Below, piece after piece: positions 54,842-64,000 of a stretch of 64,000 nucleotides of DNA. The position numbers and the translations under genes were made by a program. The first letter of the stretch is position 1. Each line of letters begins with the position of its first letter. Below the pieces are notes generated by a model, which saw only the letters and a list, made by a program, of their open reading frames with translations, had not been told where the DNA came from and searched no databases. The DNA is from Streptomyces luomodiensis (GTDB lineage: Bacteria; Actinomycetota; Actinomycetes; Streptomycetales; Streptomycetaceae), in NCBI RefSeq assembly GCF_031679605.1, contig NZ_CP117522.1, positions 7,998,001-8,062,000 on the forward strand, in the 5' to 3' direction.

Positions 54842-56791
54842 TCAGGTGAGCGGGGGGTCCTGGGGGTCGCGGTACATGGGGCCGCGGCCGGACAGGACCT
54901 CCCCGTACGCCTGCATCAGATCCGGCAGCCGCAGCGTGGCGAGGTCGTCGCGGGTCGGGGTGCCGGTCCAGCCGGAGAGCCGCAGATCGCGGTAGGCGCA
55001 GCTCTTCTCGTACAGCGTGCGCAGGAACCGGCCGTTCCCCAGCTCGTCGATCCAGCCCTGGTCCACCACATGGCCGCTGATGCTGCGCAGCTCCTCCAGG
55101 GCCTCCTCGTCCCACACGTCCCCGTTCTCCGCGGCCAGCACCTCACCGATCCGGGTGAGCTCCAGCGGGCGGTAGCTGGGGAAGTCCACGCGCGTGGTGA
55201 AGCGGGAACCGAGGCCGGGGTTGGCGGCCAGCAGCCGGTCCATGCCCTCGGGATAGCCGGCGAGGATCACCACGAGCCGGTCGCGGTTGTCCTCGGCGCG
55301 CTTGAGCAGCACCTGGAGCGCCTCGTCGCCGTAGGCGTCGCCCTTGCTGTAGCCGGAGTTGGACAGGCTGTACGCCTCGTCGACGAAGAGCACCCCGCCG
55401 AGCGCGGAGTCGATCAGCTCATTGGCCTTCACCGCCGTCTGGCCCAGGTACTCGCCGACCAGATCGGCGCGCCCGGCCTCCACCAGGTGGTCGCCGCCGA
55501 GCAGGCCGAGGGCGTAGAAGACCCGGCCGAGGATGCGGGCCACGGTGGTCTTGCCGGTGCCGGAGGGGCCGGAGAAGACGAAGTGCCGCTTGGGTGGCTG
55601 GACCGGCAGGCCCTGCCCGGCGCGCAGCCGCGCCATGTGGAGCTGCGCCGACAGCGCCCGCACCTGCCGCTTGACCGGCTCCAGGCCGACCATGCGCTCC
55701 AGCTCCTGTAGCGCGCTCTCCAGCAGCACCGGATCGGAGGGGCCGGGCTGGGACGGCAGACCCGCCCGCTCACGGGTGCCGCCCGCACCCACCACGGCCG
55801 GGCCCATCCGGGGCGGTCCCGCGGGTCCCGCGGGTCCCGCGGGTCCCGCGGGTCCCGCGGGTCCCGAGGGTCCCTCGCCCGGGGCCCGCGGATCGCGGCC
55901 GTCGGTGGGCAGCGGATCGGTGGGCAGCGGATCGGCGGGGTCGGTGGCGGTGCTGTCCCGGCCGTCCACATCCTGGCCGCCGGTCCCGGCCAGCGAGATG
56001 GTGGCCAGATCCGCGGGCTCGTCCAGCCCGTCGGACTCGGCGATCGCCGCGAGCCGCGCCGAGGTGTCCATGAAGGCGGAGTCGATGCGGTGCACGGCGC
56101 GGTAGAGGGGGAGCGCGGCGGCGCTGCGCCCGGTGCCCTCATGGGCGCGGGCGAGCCAGTAGCGCAGCTCCTTGCGCTGGGGCTGTTCGCTGCGGCAGCG
56201 CATCAGGGCGGCGGCGAGCAGCGGTTCGGCCTGGCTGTACATCTCCAGCCGGACCCGCGCCATCCCGGCGAACAGACCGGCCTCGATGCCCAGGAACGGA
56301 TCGTCCAGCAGCGGGTCGGTGTGGCGCACCAGCTGCTCCCAGTCCTTGACCAGATAGGCGCGGCAGGCGTGCAGGAAGCGGGCCTGGGGATCGGCCTCCA
56401 CCGGAGGGCAGCCGGCCAGCGCCCGGTCCAGCTCGGGCACATGGCGGCCGTCGAGCCAGTGCGAGGCATGGGCGAGCAGCAGATCCCGGCCGGTTTCCAG
56501 CACCGGCTGGACCCACCAGCCGAGCCAGTACCAGGAGTTGAGGGTGCGGCGGTGGCGGGCGCGCTGCTCGCCGAAGCGGTCGCGGTGCCTGTACATCCGC
56601 AGCAGCGCGGCCGCCGTGTCGGCTCGCAGCGCGTGCAGTCCGAGCCAGGCGTCGGCCATGCCGGGATCGAGCCGTGTCGCGGTCCGGAACTCCTCCTCGG
56701 CCTGTGCGTACGCGCCCATCGTGTAGGCGTCGACGGCTCGCAGCCAGGCGAGATCGGCCGGGGCGTGCGAACTGTGCGTGCCGAAATCCAT
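54842..56791 (-). CDS. CbxX/CfqX (EccA-like) AAA ATPase with TPR N-terminus
   Basis: A 649-residue protein. The N-terminal ~270 residues form a TPR-like helical domain similar to that of ESX EccA. A Gly-Pro-Ala linker (residues about 300-330) is encoded by 9-bp DNA repeats near 55818-55860. The AAA domain follows, with Walker A GPSGTGKTT at about 408-416, Walker B GVLFVDEAYSLS near 470, and a GSRF arginine finger. EccA-type ATPases serve type VII secretion, but no ESX genes are adjacent. ATG 56791 begins at the domain. Confidence 0.88.
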   Translation of the reverse strand: MDFGTHSSHAPADLAWLRAVDAYTMGAYAQAEEEFRTATRLDPGMADAWLGLHALRADTAAALLRMYRHRDRFGEQRARHRRTLNSWYWLGWWVQPVLETGRDLLLAHASHWLDGRHVPELDRALAGCPPVEADPQARFLHACRAYLVKDWEQLVRHTDPLLDDPFLGIEAGLFAGMARVRLEMYSQAEPLLAAALMRCRSEQPQRKELRYWLARAHEGTGRSAAALPLYRAVHRIDSAFMDTSARLAAIAESDGLDEPADLATISLAGTGGQDVDGRDSTATDPADPLPTDPLPTDGRDPRAPGEGPSGPAGPAGPAGPAGPAGPPRMGPAVVGAGGTRERAGLPSQPGPSDPVLLESALQELERMVGLEPVKRQVRALSAQLHMARLRAGQGLPVQPPKRHFVFSGPSGTGKTTVARILGRVFYALGLLGGDHLVEAGRADLVGEYLGQTAVKANELIDSALGGVLFVDEAYSLSNSGYSKGDAYGDEALQVLLKRAEDNRDRLVVILAGYPEGMDRLLAANPGLGSRFTTRVDFPSYRPLELTRIGEVLAAENGDVWDEEALEELRSISGHVVDQGWIDELGNGRFLRTLYEKSCAYRDLRLSGWTGTPTRDDLATLRLPDLMQAYGEVLSGRGPMYRDPQDPPLT

Positions 56792-57025
56792 CACGTCCCC
56801 CACAACCCCTGCCCCCGTGGATGCCGCAGGGGCGACTGCCCCTTTCGCATCGTACCTGCGCAGGCCGGATGGGCCGAGGGTGCCGCACTGCTGTTCGTCG
56901 CAATCCCACAAGGTCGGGCGGGTGTGCGCGGGGGCGTGTAAGGGGCGCGCGGGTCCTGAGACAGATCGTCACGCAGGGTGAGCGAGCGGCGGCGCAAAGG
57001 AGCGGAAAACCGGCGCCAGACAGGA

Positions 57026-58005: not shown

Positions 58006-59448
58006 ATGACCAGATCCGGATCCACACCCCGCCGCTCCGTGCTCGCCGCCGCCCTCGGCGTCGCGGGCGCCGCCGCCGTCTCCACGACGGCCGTCACGGC
58101 CGCCTCCGCGGCGCGGACCTCCACGACCCCCGGGACGTCCACGACCCCCGGGACCTCCGCCGCCCCGGCGGCCTCCGAGGCCACGGCCACCAAGGCCAAG
58201 GCCGGCCGGGTCGCGGAGTACCACGGCTGGAGCGGCCACGCCGACTGGCTGGCCGGTGCCGCCAAGGGCGTCCGCGCCGAGGCCGGTGCCCGCCCCGGCA
58301 TCGTGATCTCCCGCCCGCTGGGCAGCGTGGACTACACCGACCCGCACACCGGCACCAAGGCCGCCTGGGAGTACGCCACCTGGACCTCCCCGGTGCGCAC
58401 GCTCTCCGTGCCCGCCACCGAGGCCATCGTCTCCTGGAACGCCCGCACCCCCGCCGGCACCTGGATCCAGATCGAGCTGAAGGGCACCTACACCGACGGC
58501 TCCGCGACCCCCTGGTACGTGATGGGCCGTTGGGCCTCCGGCGACGGCGCCTCCTCCATCCGGCGCACCTCGGTGGACGGCCAGAGCGACGACAAGAGCT
58601 CGGTGTGGACCGACACCCTCTCCATCGACGACCCGGCCGACGGGCTGCGGCTGGCGACGTACCAGGTGCGGCTCACCCTCCACCGCAAGCCCGGCACCAC
58701 CCTCACCCCCACGGTGTGGCGGGTCGGCGCGATGGGCTCGGACGTCCCCGACCGGTTCGAGGTGCCCGCCTCCACGCCGAGCCTGTCCACGGGGCGCGAG
58801 CTGGCCGTACCGCGCTACTCGCAGGAGATCCACAAGGGCCAGTACCCGGAGTACGACAACGGCGGCGAGGCGTGGTGCAGCCCCACCTCCTCGCAGATGA
58901 TCATCGAGTACTGGGGCCGCAAGCCCTCCGCCGCGGACCTGGCCTGGGTCGACCCGGACTACGCCGACCCGCAGGTCTGCCACGCCGCCCGGTCCACCTT
59001 CGACTACCAGTACGAGGGGTGCGGCAACTGGCCGTTCAACGCCGCGTACGCCGCCACCTACCGCGATCTCCAGGGTGTGGTCACCCGGCTGGACTCGCTC
59101 ACCGACGCCGAGAAGCTGATCGACGCCGGCATCCCGCTGATCACCTCGCAGTCCTTCCTCGCGACGGAGCTGGACGGCGCGGGATACGGCACCTCGGGCC
59201 ACCTGATGACCGTCGTCGGCTTCACGGCCGACGGCGACGTCATCGCCAACGACCCGGCCTCGCCGGACAACGAGGCGGTCCGCCACGTCTACCAGCGGCG
59301 CCAGTGGGAGAACATCTGGCTGCGCACCAAGCGCTACGACGCGAACGGCCAGGTCAAAAGCGGTACCGGAGGGGTGTGCTACCTCTACTTCCCGGCCAGG
59401 CCGACAGCGGCTCAGCGCCGCGTCCTGCGGGAGCTGGGGATCCGGTAG
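58006..59448 (+). CDS. Tat-exported C39-type peptidase family protein
   Basis: A 480-residue secreted protein. The N-terminus carries a twin-arginine signal (STPRRSVLAAALGVAG), then a Thr/Ser/Pro linker with a TSTTPG repeat. A middle beta-rich domain (about 75-260) precedes the C39-like papain fold, with Cys291 (EAWCSPTSSQM), His399 (SGHLMTVVGF) and Asp416 (NDPAS). It is probably an extracellular cysteine peptidase; no ABC-transporter or bacteriocin gene is near. GGGGGAA precedes ATG 58006. Confidence 0.88.
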   Translation: MTRSGSTPRRSVLAAALGVAGAAAVSTTAVTAASAARTSTTPGTSTTPGTSAAPAASEATATKAKAGRVAEYHGWSGHADWLAGAAKGVRAEAGARPGIVISRPLGSVDYTDPHTGTKAAWEYATWTSPVRTLSVPATEAIVSWNARTPAGTWIQIELKGTYTDGSATPWYVMGRWASGDGASSIRRTSVDGQSDDKSSVWTDTLSIDDPADGLRLATYQVRLTLHRKPGTTLTPTVWRVGAMGSDVPDRFEVPASTPSLSTGRELAVPRYSQEIHKGQYPEYDNGGEAWCSPTSSQMIIEYWGRKPSAADLAWVDPDYADPQVCHAARSTFDYQYEGCGNWPFNAAYAATYRDLQGVVTRLDSLTDAEKLIDAGIPLITSQSFLATELDGAGYGTSGHLMTVVGFTADGDVIANDPASPDNEAVRHVYQRRQWENIWLRTKRYDANGQVKSGTGGVCYLYFPARPTAAQRRVLRELGIR

Positions 59449-59494: not shown

Positions 59495-60433
59495 TCATCG
59501 GGCGTGGGCCAGCAGGCGCCGCAGGACGTCGTCGGCTACCCGCCCCACCGTGTCCGCGGGGCCGCCGTCGATCTCCCGCAGCCCGGTCGGACTGGTGATG
59601 TTCACCTCGATGAGCCGGTCTCGTATGAGGTCGACACCGGCGAAGGCGATCCCCCGCCCGATCAGCTCGGGGCGGAGCACCGCACAGATCGCGCGGTCGG
59701 TCTCCGTGAGGGGGACCGCGGTCGCCGAGGCCCCGACGGCCATGTTGCACCGGAAGTCGGGCGCCTTGGCGGTGCGGCGGAGCGCGGCGACCGGTTCGCC
59801 GTCGACGACGAGGACTCTGCGGTCGCTGTGGGTGCCGTCGTCGACGAAACGCTGAAGTACCACGTGTCGCCGCCCCCGCGCGGTGCCGACCTCGATCAGG
59901 CCGGGGAGGTTCGGGTGTCCGTGTTCCAGCAGCAGGACGCCACGTCCGCCCATGGCATCCGTCGGCTTGAGGACCGCCCGGCCCCATCGCCCCACCGCGT
60001 CGGCCAGTTCCGCCGCGGAGGCGCTCACCACGGTCTCCGGGGTGAGCTCGGGGAAGCGCAGCGCGAAGAGCTTCTCGTTCGTGCTCCTCAGCGCGTCAGG
60101 GCTGTTGCACACGGGAGTGCCGCGTCGCTGCGCGAAGTCCAGGAGATACGTGGCCCGCAGATAGTCCTCGTCCACCGGCGGATCGGTGCGTACGAGCACG
60201 AGGCCGACATGGTCCAGGTCCACGACCTCGGCCGGGCCGCGGCCGAGGAAGCCGGACCGCGGATCGGCCGCGCGGGCGCGGGCGAACACTTTGCCGTCAC
60301 GTACGGACAACTCGCGCATCTCGGCCATGAGTACCTGGTGACCGCGCGCCGCGGCGGCCCTCATCAGCGCGATCGACGAGTCGTGACCGGGGTCGAGCCG
60401 GTCCGGCGGGTCGACGAGGAACAGCAGCCTCAT
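59495..60433 (-). CDS. Glutathione synthetase-like ATP-grasp ligase
   Basis: A 312-residue protein similar to bacterial GshB. Near residue 90, VRTDPPVDEDYLRATYLLDFAQRRG and the following NSPDALRSTNEKL (cited as parts DPPVDEDYL and RSTNEKL) are GshB hallmarks. LKPTDAMGGRGV is the ATP-grasp glycine loop, and IEVNITSPTGLREI the Mg-ligand block. GshB joins glycine to gamma-glutamylcysteine, yet streptomycetes normally make mycothiol and no gshA is in view, so another peptide-like product is possible. ATG 60433 overlaps the amidohydrolase stop. It is the last gene of the operon. Confidence 0.85.
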   Translation of the reverse strand: MRLLFLVDPPDRLDPGHDSSIALMRAAAARGHQVLMAEMRELSVRDGKVFARARAADPRSGFLGRGPAEVVDLDHVGLVLVRTDPPVDEDYLRATYLLDFAQRRGTPVCNSPDALRSTNEKLFALRFPELTPETVVSASAAELADAVGRWGRAVLKPTDAMGGRGVLLLEHGHPNLPGLIEVGTARGRRHVVLQRFVDDGTHSDRRVLVVDGEPVAALRRTAKAPDFRCNMAVGASATAVPLTETDRAICAVLRPELIGRGIAFAGVDLIRDRLIEVNITSPTGLREIDGGPADTVGRVADDVLRRLLAHAR

Positions 60434-61323
60434 GCGCGGAGCCCGGTGTCCACCAGCCGCCGCGGGTTGTGGACCAGGATCTGCCGGCGCAGCGCGGCGT
60501 CGTCCACCCAGTCGCAGAAGAGGTCGGCGAGGTCGGCGACGTCCGGCGCGGACTCTCCCATCCGTACGAAGGGCCAGTCCGAGCCCCACAGCAACCGTGC
60601 CGGCGCGGCCTCGACCAGGGCGTCGTGGAACGGGCGGGCGTCCGCGTAGCCCCGGTCGGGGTCTCCCACGCGGCACAGCGTCAGCTTCACCCAGGCCGCG
60701 CCGTCCTTCACGCGGTCGAGCAGGGCACGGAAAGCCGCCGAGTCGGGGCCGGCGGCCACATCGGGCTGCGCCAGATGGTCCAGGACGACCGGGACGCCGG
60801 TGCCGGAGAACTCGTCCACCAGCCGGACGCAGTCCTCCAGCCCCGCCCAGATCTGCGCGTGGATGCCCAGCTCGCGCATGACCGGCGCCAGGGCACGGAA
60901 CGCCTCGGTCCCGATGGCGCCGGGGAAGCGCGCGCCGGTGGCCGGGGCGATGCGGTCGTTGAACCGCAGGGCCCGGACGCCGGCGGCGTGCAGCCGTGCC
61001 AGCTCACCGGCCGGGCAGTCGGCGGTGGCCACGCCTACGCCCACGGCCCGGCCCTCCGACCGCGCCAGCGCGTGCTCCAGCGCGCTCGTGTCGTTCCCGT
61101 AGGGCGCGGGCTGTACGAGCATCCCGCGCGCGGTGCCGGTGCGGTCGAGCATGCCGAGGTACGTTCCCGCAGGCGCGTCCGGGATCGGATAGGTGGACGG
61201 GCCGGTCGGGAACCGGTCGAAGGGCCCGAAGACGTGGGAGTGGCAGTCCCAGGCGTCGGCCGGGAAGTCCCGGGCCGCACGCGTGGGCATGCGCGGCGGG
61301 ACGGTGCCGTCTGTCGTGGTCAC
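60430..61323 (-). CDS. LigI-like amidohydrolase (2-pyrone-4,6-dicarboxylate hydrolase family)
   Basis: A 297-residue TIM-barrel amidohydrolase. The opening WDCHSHVFGP has His28/His30, with His183 (LDHLAQPD) and Asp249 (GSDWP) at the LigI-like catalytic positions. LigI opens a pyrone lactone in lignin-derived aromatic degradation. Relatives act on other lactones or ring-cleavage products, so the substrate is open. It starts 3 nt after the CMD-like gene and overlaps the ligase start. Confidence 0.85.
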   Translation of the reverse strand: MTTTDGTVPPRMPTRAARDFPADAWDCHSHVFGPFDRFPTGPSTYPIPDAPAGTYLGMLDRTGTARGMLVQPAPYGNDTSALEHALARSEGRAVGVGVATADCPAGELARLHAAGVRALRFNDRIAPATGARFPGAIGTEAFRALAPVMRELGIHAQIWAGLEDCVRLVDEFSGTGVPVVLDHLAQPDVAAGPDSAAFRALLDRVKDGAAWVKLTLCRVGDPDRGYADARPFHDALVEAAPARLLWGSDWPFVRMGESAPDVADLADLFCDWVDDAALRRQILVHNPRRLVDTGLRA

Positions 61324-61326
61324 GGC

Positions 61327-61956
61327 TCAGCCCGCCGTCTTCGTCATCTCGGCGGGCGCGCCGAGTGTGGCTTCGGGCAGCTCCATGAGCCGGCGCACCG
61401 GGCCGGCCGCGGACGCCAGTGGGCGCTCCCCGCCGGGCACCGGGATCCGGTGGACGTTCAAGGTCATGGCGACCAGCGTGTAGTAGCCGACGACGGACGA
61501 GAGTTCGACGGCTCCCACCTCGCCCCAGCGCTGCCAGACCCGCTGGTACACCTCTTCGTCGACATCGCCGGTCTGCTGGAGCGTGCGGGCGAACTCATGG
61601 ACGTCGTAGGCGTCCTGGTCGTGGAAGACGGGGGGCTCACCGACCCGGAGGGCCTCGACGATCTCCGCTGCCAGACCCGCGCGCAGCGCGGCGTCCGCGT
61701 GGATCGACCATTCGAGCTGGGCGGTCCAGCGACGGGCCACGACGAGGATGGCCAGCTCGTTGAGGTGTTCGGGCAGGCTGGTGCCGTACCGCAGGATCTC
61801 GCCGAACCGCTGCCAGCGGTCGGCGAGTTCGGGCCGGTGCAACGCCGCTCTCAGCGGTCCGACCAGCCGGGCGCGGGGTCCGTTCACGACGTCGCGGTAG
61901 ACCCTCTCCTGCTCCGGGGTCATCACCTCGGGGTCGAACAGTGGGATGCGGGGCAC
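61327..61956 (-). CDS. Carboxymuconolactone decarboxylase-like protein
   Basis: A 209-residue protein of the CMD/AhpD-like fold. The conserved helix is RRWTAQLEWSIHADAALRAGL (residues about 95-115; cited in part as EWSIHADAALRAGL). The AhpD CxxC peroxidase motif is absent, so it is not a thiol peroxidase. It resembles CMD-like proteins commonly placed in aromatic or lactone catabolic operons. GTG 61956 has AGGAGA upstream on its strand. The gap to the CoA-transferase is 53 nt. Confidence 0.8.
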   Translation of the reverse strand: MPRIPLFDPEVMTPEQERVYRDVVNGPRARLVGPLRAALHRPELADRWQRFGEILRYGTSLPEHLNELAILVVARRWTAQLEWSIHADAALRAGLAAEIVEALRVGEPPVFHDQDAYDVHEFARTLQQTGDVDEEVYQRVWQRWGEVGAVELSSVVGYYTLVAMTLNVHRIPVPGGERPLASAAGPVRRLMELPEATLGAPAEMTKTAG

Positions 61957-62009
61957 GAAGGACTCTCCTGGTTCTCGTTCGTTCGCTGAAGAGGGCGGTG
62001 ACCGGCTCG

Positions 62010-63179
62010 TCAGGCGCGGGTTTCGGCCGTGAGCTCGTGGGTGATCTCCGCCCCGTGCTGTCCGAGCAGTGGCGGGGCCGTGTCGAAGTCGAGCGCGGCG
62101 TTGCGAAAGCGCAGGGGGCTGACCACCTGGGGAACGGAACCCAGGGTCGGGTGCGGCAGGTGCCGGACCATCTCGCGGTGGCGCACCTGCTCGTCGGCGA
62201 AGGCCATCGGCACGGTGTTGATGGGGCCGCACGGCACCGAACGGCTGCCGAGTTCGTGCAGCCAGTGCTCGAGGTCGCCTTCGGCCAGCGTGTCCCGGAT
62301 GAGGGAGGTGAGCGCTTCCACGTTGCGCACGCGGGCCTCGTTGGTGGCGTAGTCGGGGTCGGCGGCGAGGTCGGGCATGCCGAGCGCCTCGCAGAACTGG
62401 ACGAACTGCCCGTCGTTGCCGACCGCGACGACGAGGTGGCCGTCCCGGCAGGGGTACACGTCCTGCGGCTGGATGTTCGGGTGCCGGTTGCCGCGGCGGA
62501 CCGGCACGTCACCGGAGATCAGGTGGTTCATCGCTTGGTTGGCGAGGATGCCGACCTGGACGTCCAGCATGGCGAGGTCGATGTGGTCGCCCTCCCCGGT
62601 GCGGTCCCGGTGGGCGAGGGCGGCCAGCACGCCGGTGGCCGCGTACATGCCGGTGAAGAGGTCCACCACCGGGATGCCGACCTTCTGCGGGCCCCCTCCC
62701 GGCCGGTCGTCGGGCTCGCCGGTGACGCTCATCAGCCCGCCCATGGCCTGGATCATGAAGTCGTAGGCGGCCTGGTCACGACGCGGGCCGGTCTGGCCGA
62801 AACCGGTGATCGAGCAGTAGATGAGGTCGGACTTGACGGCCCGCAGGTCCTCGTAGCCCAGTCCGTACCGGTCGAGCGTGCCGGCCTTGAAGTTCTCCAG
62901 CACGATGTCGCTGGTGGCGGCGAGCCGGCGGACGAGTTCCTGCCCCTCGGCGGTGGCGAGGTCCGCGGTGACCGAGCGCTTGCCCCGGTTGACGGAGAGG
63001 AAGTAGCCGGACTCCGTGTCCAGGAACGGCGGTCCCCAGGAGCGGGTGTCGTCGCCGGTGCCCGGCCGTTCGACCTTGATGACGTCGGCGCCGAGGTCGG
63101 CGAGCACCTGGCCGGCCCACGGTCCCGCCATGATGCGGCTCAGGTCGAGCACGCGCACATGCGTCAGCGGGCCCGTCAC
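62010..63179 (-). CDS. Class III (CaiB/BaiF family) CoA-transferase
   Basis: A 389-residue CoA-transferase. LSRIMAGPWAGQVLADLGADVIKVE is the family opening (cited in part: GPWAGQVLADLGADVIKVE). Catalytic Asp140 lies in AAYDFMIQAMGG. TGMYAATGVLAAL and GNDGQFVQFCEALG are also typical. It moves CoA between carboxylic acids such as an alkyl succinate, mesaconate or formate-like donor. GTG 63179 overlaps the GST-like gene's stop (GTGA). Confidence 0.92.
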   Translation of the reverse strand: MTGPLTHVRVLDLSRIMAGPWAGQVLADLGADVIKVERPGTGDDTRSWGPPFLDTESGYFLSVNRGKRSVTADLATAEGQELVRRLAATSDIVLENFKAGTLDRYGLGYEDLRAVKSDLIYCSITGFGQTGPRRDQAAYDFMIQAMGGLMSVTGEPDDRPGGGPQKVGIPVVDLFTGMYAATGVLAALAHRDRTGEGDHIDLAMLDVQVGILANQAMNHLISGDVPVRRGNRHPNIQPQDVYPCRDGHLVVAVGNDGQFVQFCEALGMPDLAADPDYATNEARVRNVEALTSLIRDTLAEGDLEHWLHELGSRSVPCGPINTVPMAFADEQVRHREMVRHLPHPTLGSVPQVVSPLRFRNAALDFDTAPPLLGQHGAEITHELTAETRA

Positions 63180-63826
63180 GACGCGCTCCCGGTGGCGAGT
63201 GCGGCGGAGTCGTCGACGATCCGCGTGGCGCGCATCGACGGACGCTCGGACACCTCGGCGTGCCATGCGGCGAGGTTCGGCCGCCCGGCGCGCCAGTGAA
63301 GTACGTCCCAGCGGAAGTCCAGGTGCGCCAGGGCGATCGCCACCGACACCCGGCCGATGTCGAAGCGTTCCCCGAGTTCGCCGGCGCGGGACTCGAGGTG
63401 GTCGAGCGTCGTCGTCACCTTCAGGCCGAAGGCGTCGAGGTAGGGGTCGGCGGCGTCGTGGGCGAGGCCACGGTCACGATGCCAGTTGCGCCATATGAGG
63501 AGCAGGTCGAGCAGGCCGTCACCGAGGGCCTGGAGCGAGGCCGCCCGGAAGTACTCCGCCTCGTCGCGCGGGTACAGCACCGTGTCACCCGCCCTGCGGG
63601 CGAAGAACTCGCAGATCACCCGGGAGTCGAGCAGGACGCGCCCGTCGTCGAGCAGCAGTGTGGGGATCTTGTTGAGCGGATTGGCGCTCAGCACCTTGGG
63701 GTTGGGCTCGGACATCTGCACCGGGGTGCGTTCGGTCTCGACGTCGTCCACCTGGCCCGTCTCGTGCAGTACGACCATGACCTTGCGGACGAACGGTGAT
63801 TTCGGGGACCAGAACAGTCGCACCAC
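63176..63826 (-). CDS. Glutathione S-transferase-like protein
   Basis: A 216-residue GST fold. The N-terminal thioredoxin-like domain has the Ser-containing LFWSPKSPFVRKV (possible catalytic serine), cis-proline KIPTLLLDDG and the DSRVICEFF acid-Ser motif that binds the gamma-glutamyl group. An all-helical C-terminal domain follows. Zeta-class relatives isomerise maleyl compounds. The start is GTG 63826 (or 63823), preceded by TAGGAG on its strand. It is the first clear gene of the operon. Confidence 0.88.
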   Translation of the reverse strand: MVRLFWSPKSPFVRKVMVVLHETGQVDDVETERTPVQMSEPNPKVLSANPLNKIPTLLLDDGRVLLDSRVICEFFARRAGDTVLYPRDEAEYFRAASLQALGDGLLDLLLIWRNWHRDRGLAHDAADPYLDAFGLKVTTTLDHLESRAGELGERFDIGRVSVAIALAHLDFRWDVLHWRAGRPNLAAWHAEVSERPSMRATRIVDDSAALATGSAS

Positions 63827-63833
63827 AGACTCC

Positions 63834-63872
63834 TAAGTCATTAATGCAGCTTTATAGCTTTTTACGGTAAGG
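63834..63872 (-). promoter_or_regulatory. AT-rich region upstream of the GST-like gene
   Basis: This is the most AT-rich patch seen in the window's final part, and on the minus strand it includes two AAAGCT copies around TATAA and an ATTAAT. It is a likely promoter or operator of the terminal operon. Individual -35 and -10 boxes cannot be assigned with confidence. Confidence 0.4.
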
Positions 63873-63905
63873 GTGTGCCCCTGTCGGTGGCAAGTCACCT
63901 CTGGG

Positions 63906-64000
63906 TCAGGCGTGGACGGAGATGTCCAGACGGACGACGTCACCGCGGTACATGCCGTCACCGACGAAGACCACGGACCCGTCCGCGTCGACCGCCGTGC
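63906..64000 (-). CDS. Partial CDS, C-terminal 30 residues of an unknown protein
   Basis: The window ends inside this gene. The readable tail is ...TAVDADGSVVFVGDG then MYRGDVVRLDISVHA and a stop at 63906-63908. The alternating hydrophobic pattern suggests a beta-strand-rich C-terminus; I do not recognise the family. The 79-nt AT-rich gap before the GST-like gene may separate it as its own unit. Confidence 0.6.
   Translation of the reverse strand, partial: TAVDADGSVVFVGDGMYRGDVVRLDISVHA

Follow-up and report, generated by a model that had tools for sequence, protein, structure and literature searches.

Few Actinobacteria are described as using glutathione (GSH), which Streptomyces is said to lack, so that the glutathione S-transferases (GSTs) of this genus were regarded as puzzling (PMC8552685). 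Among the described actinobacterial systems, the isoprene degradation (iso) genes are transcribed upon induction by isoprene, and gshA, gshB1 and gshB2 lie near CoA-transferase and GST genes (PMC4676930); further iso clusters are presented in PMC9804861 and PMC7355492. Here, we describe a five-gene operon of Streptomyces luomodiensis, located at positions 59495-63826 of a 64,000-nucleotide stretch (hereafter the window; contig NZ_CP117522.1, positions 7,998,001 to 8,062,000) of a genome that consists of one contig of 10.04 Mb. The operon encodes a YibF-like GST, a CaiB-type CoA-transferase (CaiB), a CMD-like protein, a LigI-like amidohydrolase (AmHy) and a ligase resembling glutathione synthase (GshB). 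From sequence comparisons, we propose that it is a proteobacterial-type catabolic operon, probably made workable in an actinomycete by the attached gshB, the gene for the cofactor that its GST would need.

The five open reading frames are packed on the minus strand, each with a high third-position GC content, and the frame calls bear out the GTGA (GST/CoA-transferase) and ATGA (amidohydrolase/ligase) overlaps described in an earlier, sequence-only reading of the window (Table 1). A 393-amino-acid version of the ligase was rejected because its start was over-extended; the ATG within the overlap yields a protein of 312 amino acids. In agreement with the view of the same reading that the five genes belong together, all of them occur in the same order, and with identical GTGA and ATGA overlaps, in both other Streptomyces loci read, i.e. 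those of Streptomyces sp. S465 (L030) and NBRC 110028 (L031), the genes of which are 87-99% identical to those of the window. Calculated against these two strains, the dN/dS ratios of all five operon genes range from 0.09 to 0.34, with 0.15 and 0.17 for gshB; the comparison with L030 relies on small counts, each gene having 2-6 non-synonymous and 6-12 synonymous changes. The conserved order and overlaps, together with these ratios, indicate that the five-gene array did not arise by chance.

As judged from curated cut-offs and an end-to-end alignment with a known structure, the ligase looks like a true GshB. It comprises the Pfam domains GSH-S_N and GSH-S_ATP, and it scores above both NCBIfam GshB cut-offs (TIGR01380, 301.5 versus 299.05; PRK05246, 302.5 versus 272). 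Its residues 3-307 align with residues 4-313 of the Escherichia coli GshB protein (1gsa; E 3.1e-56), from which it retains the DSS, RxDPP, LKPxDxMGG, N-TSPT and REI stretches, which presumably have roles in GshB. A protein search of the own genome with this GshB returned the operon copy as the sole match at E ≤ 1e-10. Matches at E ≤ 1e-30 occur in 11 of the 394 genomes of the class (own included; the remaining ten are 35-50% identical), and matches at E ≤ 1e-10 in 7 of the 199 genomes of the genus (own included; the best-scoring other one is 32% identical). The GshB of a third Streptomyces, distinct from S465 and NBRC 110028, is 98% identical to that of the operon. Another genome of the genus (G014) harbors at L126:9679-11514 a GshB homologue just below the cut-offs (268.3 versus 272 and 258.5 versus 299), which adjoins an IsoI-like GST (115 versus a cut-off of 300) and is accompanied by an SDR protein and a partial gshA-like match; this set is possibly an independent GSH module.

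The distribution of the operon genes was analyzed by scanning named genomes with a CMD alignment, which yielded 366 relatives; the best 80 loci were kept and read over at most 10 kb in both directions from CMD. By title, 78 of them are proteobacterial and two originate from Streptomyces (S465 and NBRC 110028). Using neighbor thresholds of E ≤ 1e-15 and identities of 38% (GST), 55% (CaiB) and 40% (AmHy), we found on the CMD strand and within 4 kb, in the 78 proteobacterial loci, GST in 56, CaiB in 63 and AmHy in 39 of them; GST and CaiB are both present in 42, and AmHy accompanies them in 22. The best matches in these loci are 41-56% identical for GST (73 loci), 48-73% for CaiB (74), 50-69% for CMD (78) and 45-55% for AmHy (39). 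GshB occurs in none of the 78 proteobacterial loci within the at most 10 kb read on either side, and in both Streptomyces loci. When the whole genomes of 23 of the 80 loci were searched with TIGR01380, gshB was detected above the cut-off in all 23: in the 21 proteobacterial genomes it lies outside the loci read, i.e. elsewhere in the genome (21/21), whereas in S465 and NBRC 110028 the operon gene is the sole match. Hence, in this sample, gshB is missing from the operon of those hosts that already have a copy, and forms part of it in the hosts from the genus said to lack GSH.

No CMD ortholog was found at E ≤ 1e-35 in the 393 other class genomes drawn, and two further groups of genomes gave weak matches (30%) in two of eight and none at E ≤ 1e-35 in 35. 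In Saccharopolyspora NPDC000995, the contigs encoding GshB and CMD have the same length (12,804 bases), as do those encoding the GshB and AmHy of SID8361 (19,017 bases). In 11 other actinobacterial gshB stretches (L115-L125, from 10 class genomes), a monooxygenase of the styrene-cluster (sty) type is matched in L115 only, a gshA-like match lies near gshB in five (L115, L117, L120, L123 and L124), and no match to the GST or CaiB of the window was found.

The ancestry of gshB was addressed with a midpoint-rooted tree of 48 rows, in which 17 of the 21 proteobacterial gshB were used and from which L027 and four metagenome rows were left out. Six GshBs, from the window, three other Streptomyces, Saccharopolyspora and Amycolatopsis, form one clade (100/100) with a long stem (0.81). 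It belongs to a wider clade (99/96) that also holds the GshBs of sty, Rhodococcus, Gordonia, Pseudonocardia, Aeromicrobium and Nocardioides, and from which the 17 proteobacterial host GshBs are split at 100/99. By its position in the tree, the operon gshB is of the type found in actinobacterial isoprene/styrene clusters. In comparison, CaiB reaches 73% identity with proteins from proteobacterial loci versus 44% with its best paralog in the own genome. Considering both the GshB position and the CaiB identities, the operon looks like a mosaic of proteobacterial-type catabolic genes and an actinobacterial-type gshB; we infer the direction of transfer from the distribution and identity of the catabolic genes.

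As to the four metabolic proteins, the sequence-only reading had drawn a parallel with clusters that contain zeta-type GSTs. For the GST of the operon, this assignment fails, as the zeta-class/maleylacetoacetate isomerase (MaiA) model TIGR01262 gives 24.5 bits versus a cut-off of 171.05. The protein matches the Pfam GST_N families (GST_N_2, 57 bits), and its best match in the Protein Data Bank (PDB) is YibF (4ibp, E 8.8e-42), as is its best NCBIfam model (PRK10357), the score of which is itself below the cut-off. Over 71 aligned rows, window included, S9, P54 and D66 are conserved in 100% and S67 in 99%. No IsoI model was matched at E ≤ 0.001 in NCBIfam, and no second GST of the YibF-like type was found in the own genome at E ≤ 1e-5. 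CaiB matches CoA_transf_3 (445 bits), and its nearest named models and structures are succinate-glutarate and succinate-hydroxymethylglutarate CoA-transferases; identity with a succinate-glutarate (dicarboxylate) CoA-transferase was rejected (NF052585, 468.6 versus a cut-off of 750). The CMD-like protein weakly matches Pfam CMD (26.6 bits versus a cut-off of 23) and has no NCBIfam match at E ≤ 0.001, while its profile found nothing in the PDB at E ≤ 0.1; the Pfam score standing alone, a PcaC (4-carboxymuconolactone decarboxylase) identity was rejected. AmHy matches Amidohydro_2 (119 bits) and, by profile, the 2-pyrone-4,6-dicarboxylate hydrolase 4d8l (E 5.4e-54), which we take to be LigI, and its H28, H30, H183 and D249 are kept in 100% of 42 rows. 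No named lactonase model of NCBIfam reaches its cut-off for this protein, and a 4-sulfomuconolactone hydrolase identity was rejected (162.5 versus a cut-off of 500). The sequence-only reading had viewed the locus as a catabolic or tailoring operon for a carboxylic acid or lactone, in which the ligase provides a small-peptide or thiol cofactor. The comparison favors the core of this view, i.e. a catabolic operon served by a thiol cofactor from its ligase, through the GshB models, the conserved operon and the attachment of gshB in the actinomycete loci only among those read; as for the substrate, no named substrate-specific model was reached.

Hints about the pathway come from the proteobacterial cluster. 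The frame clusters of the 80 loci, which are named after one or two scanned members each, comprise two-subunit fumarase-like hydratases (31 and 28), TctC receptors (45), acyl-CoA dehydrogenases (38), 3-oxoadipyl-CoA thiolase (19) and D-2-hydroxyacid dehydrogenases (19), and both proteobacterial thiolases scanned (two loci) pass the PcaF cut-off. In annotated plasmid copies from two Roseomonas and one Paracoccus, GST-CaiB-CMD are located near fumarate-hydratase genes, and in Paracoccus also near pcaF. Together, these data suggest that a lactone is opened and decarboxylated, that a GSH-dependent isomerisation and the transfer of CoA follow, and that beta-oxidation leads towards 3-oxoadipyl-CoA, in an order and on a substrate that we infer. 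Literature searches of open-licence papers returned, among the matches listed, neither a characterised member or substrate of this cluster nor a report of a Streptomyces GSH-synthase operon. In Tropicibacter (L072:10592-11812, plus strand), a flavin-reductase domain is fused to a crotonase in one frame next to CMD; this fusion may be local, since several other Rhodobacterales loci have two separate frames in the same frame cluster.

Just past the window end, where the sequence-only reading had pointed for such genes, we found a GntR regulator, a transporter of the major facilitator superfamily (MFS) and acyl-CoA genes. The best NCBIfam models of the first two, HutC and a D-galactonate transporter, are both under cut-off. 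The hydratase genes located next are whole in S465; here, they show a frame change and the absence of about 400 bases across their junction, both sides of the gap being about 98% identical to S465. Beyond their remains lie a GntR-FCD regulator, two enoyl-CoA hydratase-like genes (crotonases) and a 3-hydroxyacyl-CoA dehydrogenase gene. This neighborhood, from GntR and MFS to the hydroxyacyl-CoA dehydrogenase, suggests that a lactone or dicarboxylate is channeled into beta-oxidation. The operon is probably under GntR control, and the AT-rich stretch 5' of the GST gene, which is the same in L030 and mostly kept in the more distant L031, is a candidate promoter/operator. On the other side of the operon, S465 has a similar-sized frame at the place of the C39-like peptidase gene.

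Table 1. Positions of the operon genes and surrounding features (window coordinates, unless preceded by L009).
Feature	Position	Strand	Remarks
GST, YibF-like	63176-63823	-	First operon gene; alternative GTG start at 63826
CaiB/BaiF class III CoA-transferase	62010-63179	-	GTGA 4-nt overlap with GST
CMD-like protein, diverged	61327-61956	-	53-nt gap to CaiB gene
LigI-like amidohydrolase/lactonase	60430-61323	-	3-nt gap to CMD-like gene
Putative glutathione synthase GshB (ligase)	59495-60433	-	Last gene; start in ATGA 4-nt overlap with amidohydrolase stop
Intergenic, GntR to GST, 82 bases	63824-63905	-	AT-rich conserved stretch ~63829-63870; AGCT-ATAA-AGCT and AGGAG; candidate promoter/operator
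GntR-UTRA (HutC-like) regulator	L009:1906-2649; 3' end at 63906-64000	-	Pfam GntR and UTRA; runs past window end
MFS transporter	L009:2686-3993, upstream of GntR-UTRA	Same as operon	Pfam MFS_1
Damaged two-subunit fumarase/tartrate-dehydratase-like genes	L009:4187-5277 (~66187-67277, past window)	Divergent from MFS	
AAA protein with type VII secretion EccA1 N-terminal domain	54842-56803	-	
C39-like peptidase	58039-59448	+	Convergent with gshB end of operon

Regarding the thiol background, one GCS2 protein was found in the genome; it is EgtA, scoring over the cut-off, and belongs to an egtABCD operon about 7.3 Mb away from the present operon. No PF04262 ligase was found in the genome, which possesses MshC of mycothiol synthesis, and there is neither gshA nor a monooxygenase gene among those called from window position 54842 to L009:19673. 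The product of EgtA in the ergothioneine pathway is gamma-glutamylcysteine, on which GshB would draw here. We propose that, while the operon is on, GshB would add glycine to this EgtA-made precursor to generate glutathione, which the GST would use most simply as a catalytic cofactor (e.g. for a cis-trans isomerisation, with an unsaturated acid as the substrate), or else in a conjugation step. AmHy would open a lactone, the CMD-like protein would take off a carboxyl group or act on the lactone, and CaiB would put the resulting (di)carboxylate onto CoA; the neighboring crotonases and hydroxyacyl-CoA dehydrogenase would then hydrate and oxidise it, and a thiolase encoded elsewhere would perform thiolysis. 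The chances are slightly better than even that a few Streptomyces (and probably Amycolatopsis and Saccharopolyspora too) make glutathione on demand in this manner, through an actinobacterial-type gshB at the operon end that diverts gamma-glutamylcysteine from the ergothioneine pathway only while the catabolic pathway runs.

Several observations weigh against this proposal. The TIGR01380 cut-off is exceeded only narrowly (301.5 versus 299.05); the operon is devoid of gshA, unlike iso and sty, and the EgtA supply is assumed. The fumarase-type hydratase genes beside the operon are damaged in this strain and no thiolase was found among the Streptomyces cluster genes scanned, so that the pathway may be incomplete here. 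A GST match is absent from five of the 80 loci (L045, L068, L069, L103 and L109, of which L068, L069 and L103 are each shorter than 20 kb) and present in 75, so that GST is not a strict member of the cluster; since 19 of the 80 loci span less than 20 kb, some neighbors may be missed. The co-location in Amycolatopsis, Saccharopolyspora, SID8361 and NPDC044780 is hinted at, for some, by equal contig sizes only, and a Micromonospora with a 60% identical CMD falls outside the gshB survey. Three other explanations were considered in this light. The GshB homologue might make another gamma-glutamyl peptide or ligate an amino acid to an intermediate as a tailoring enzyme, with a GST that does not use GSH. 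The bare passing of the TIGR01380 cut-off, the long stem of the GshB clade (0.81) and the absence of GSH stated for Streptomyces in PMC8552685 speak for this possibility, which we nevertheless regard as unlikely, given the full alignment with E. coli GshB and its five retained stretches, and tree neighbors that are the GshBs of GSH-using actinobacterial clusters. Moreover, as none of the 78 proteobacterial loci carries gshB, which resides elsewhere in the genomes of the 21 hosts checked, cofactor supply fits better than a pathway-specific ligase.

A purpose other than carbon-source use, namely the GSH-dependent detoxification or tailoring of an electrophile, would not conflict with a GshB that supplies GSH, and appears about as improbable as a tailoring ligase. 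It would suit a YibF-type GST of undefined role, an MFS protein that could export and the damaged hydratase genes of this strain, but not so well the adjoining crotonases and hydroxyacyl-CoA dehydrogenase, the 3-oxoadipyl-CoA thiolase over cut-off in both proteobacterial loci scanned for thiolase, nor the TctC uptake receptors of 45 of the 80 loci. Least probable of all, in our opinion, is that the catabolic operon is unrelated to gshB, which would lie there as a chance passenger or as a gene of the general stress response. So few actinomycete genomes carry gshB that a single ancestral event could explain the co-location, and the 11 other actinobacterial gshB stretches have a sty-type partner in L115 only and no window-type GST or CaiB; yet the ATGA overlap and gene order are the same in all three Streptomyces loci read, dN/dS is low, and related gshB genes sit within GST/CoA-transferase clusters. 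Cofactor supply to a catabolic operon, if correct, would make cofactor-gene capture a route by which pathways move between thiol worlds, and this operon a natural test case of a pathway crossing from a GSH organism to a mycothiol organism. It would predict where and when a Streptomyces makes glutathione, and which enzyme uses it, and it draws attention to a catabolic cluster of Proteobacteria that is likely to require GSH.

Similarly to the operon, the iso clusters of isoprene-degrading Actinobacteria, among them Rhodococcus sp. AD45, combine a CoA-transferase, GSTs and a cluster-borne glutathione synthase (PMC4676930, PMC7355492), and the Rhodococcus and Gordonia GshBs share the wider tree clade with that of the operon. 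They differ by a monooxygenase, the IsoI/IsoJ GSTs, IsoH and their own gshA, and the accessible sections of these papers name no CMD-like or LigI-like gene, whereas in the operon the GST is YibF-like, gshB has no gshA beside it and no monooxygenase occurs among the scanned genes. The sty cluster of Gordonia rubripertincta CWB2 (plasmid pGCWB2) also groups gshB with GST-type genes and a CoA-transferase; unlike the operon, it has a styrene monooxygenase and a gshA-like neighbor matching EgtA below cut-off, and its GshB is 46% identical. With a GST that is not of the IsoI/IsoJ type and no monooxygenase among the genes scanned, identity with an isoprene/styrene cluster was rejected. In AmHy, the HxH, His and WGxDWP stretches align with those of LigI (2-pyrone-4,6-dicarboxylate lactonase) and 4-sulfomuconolactone hydrolase, the cut-off of the latter not being reached. 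The proteobacterial GntR-GST-CaiB-CMD(-LigI-like)-ECH cluster, for example in Pseudomonas juntendi (L038), Paraburkholderia (L032) and Roseomonas (L159), contains the same families as the operon, and in P. juntendi the same gene order, though with two GSTs; unlike the operon, it lacks gshB (0/78) and is often accompanied by TctC receptors, a PcaF-type thiolase or a D-2-hydroxyacid dehydrogenase. The iso and sty clusters are thus precedents for actinobacterial clusters that bring their own GshB; what would be new here is an operon with its own GshB that serves a different, presumably GSH-dependent pathway, in a genus regarded as lacking GSH.

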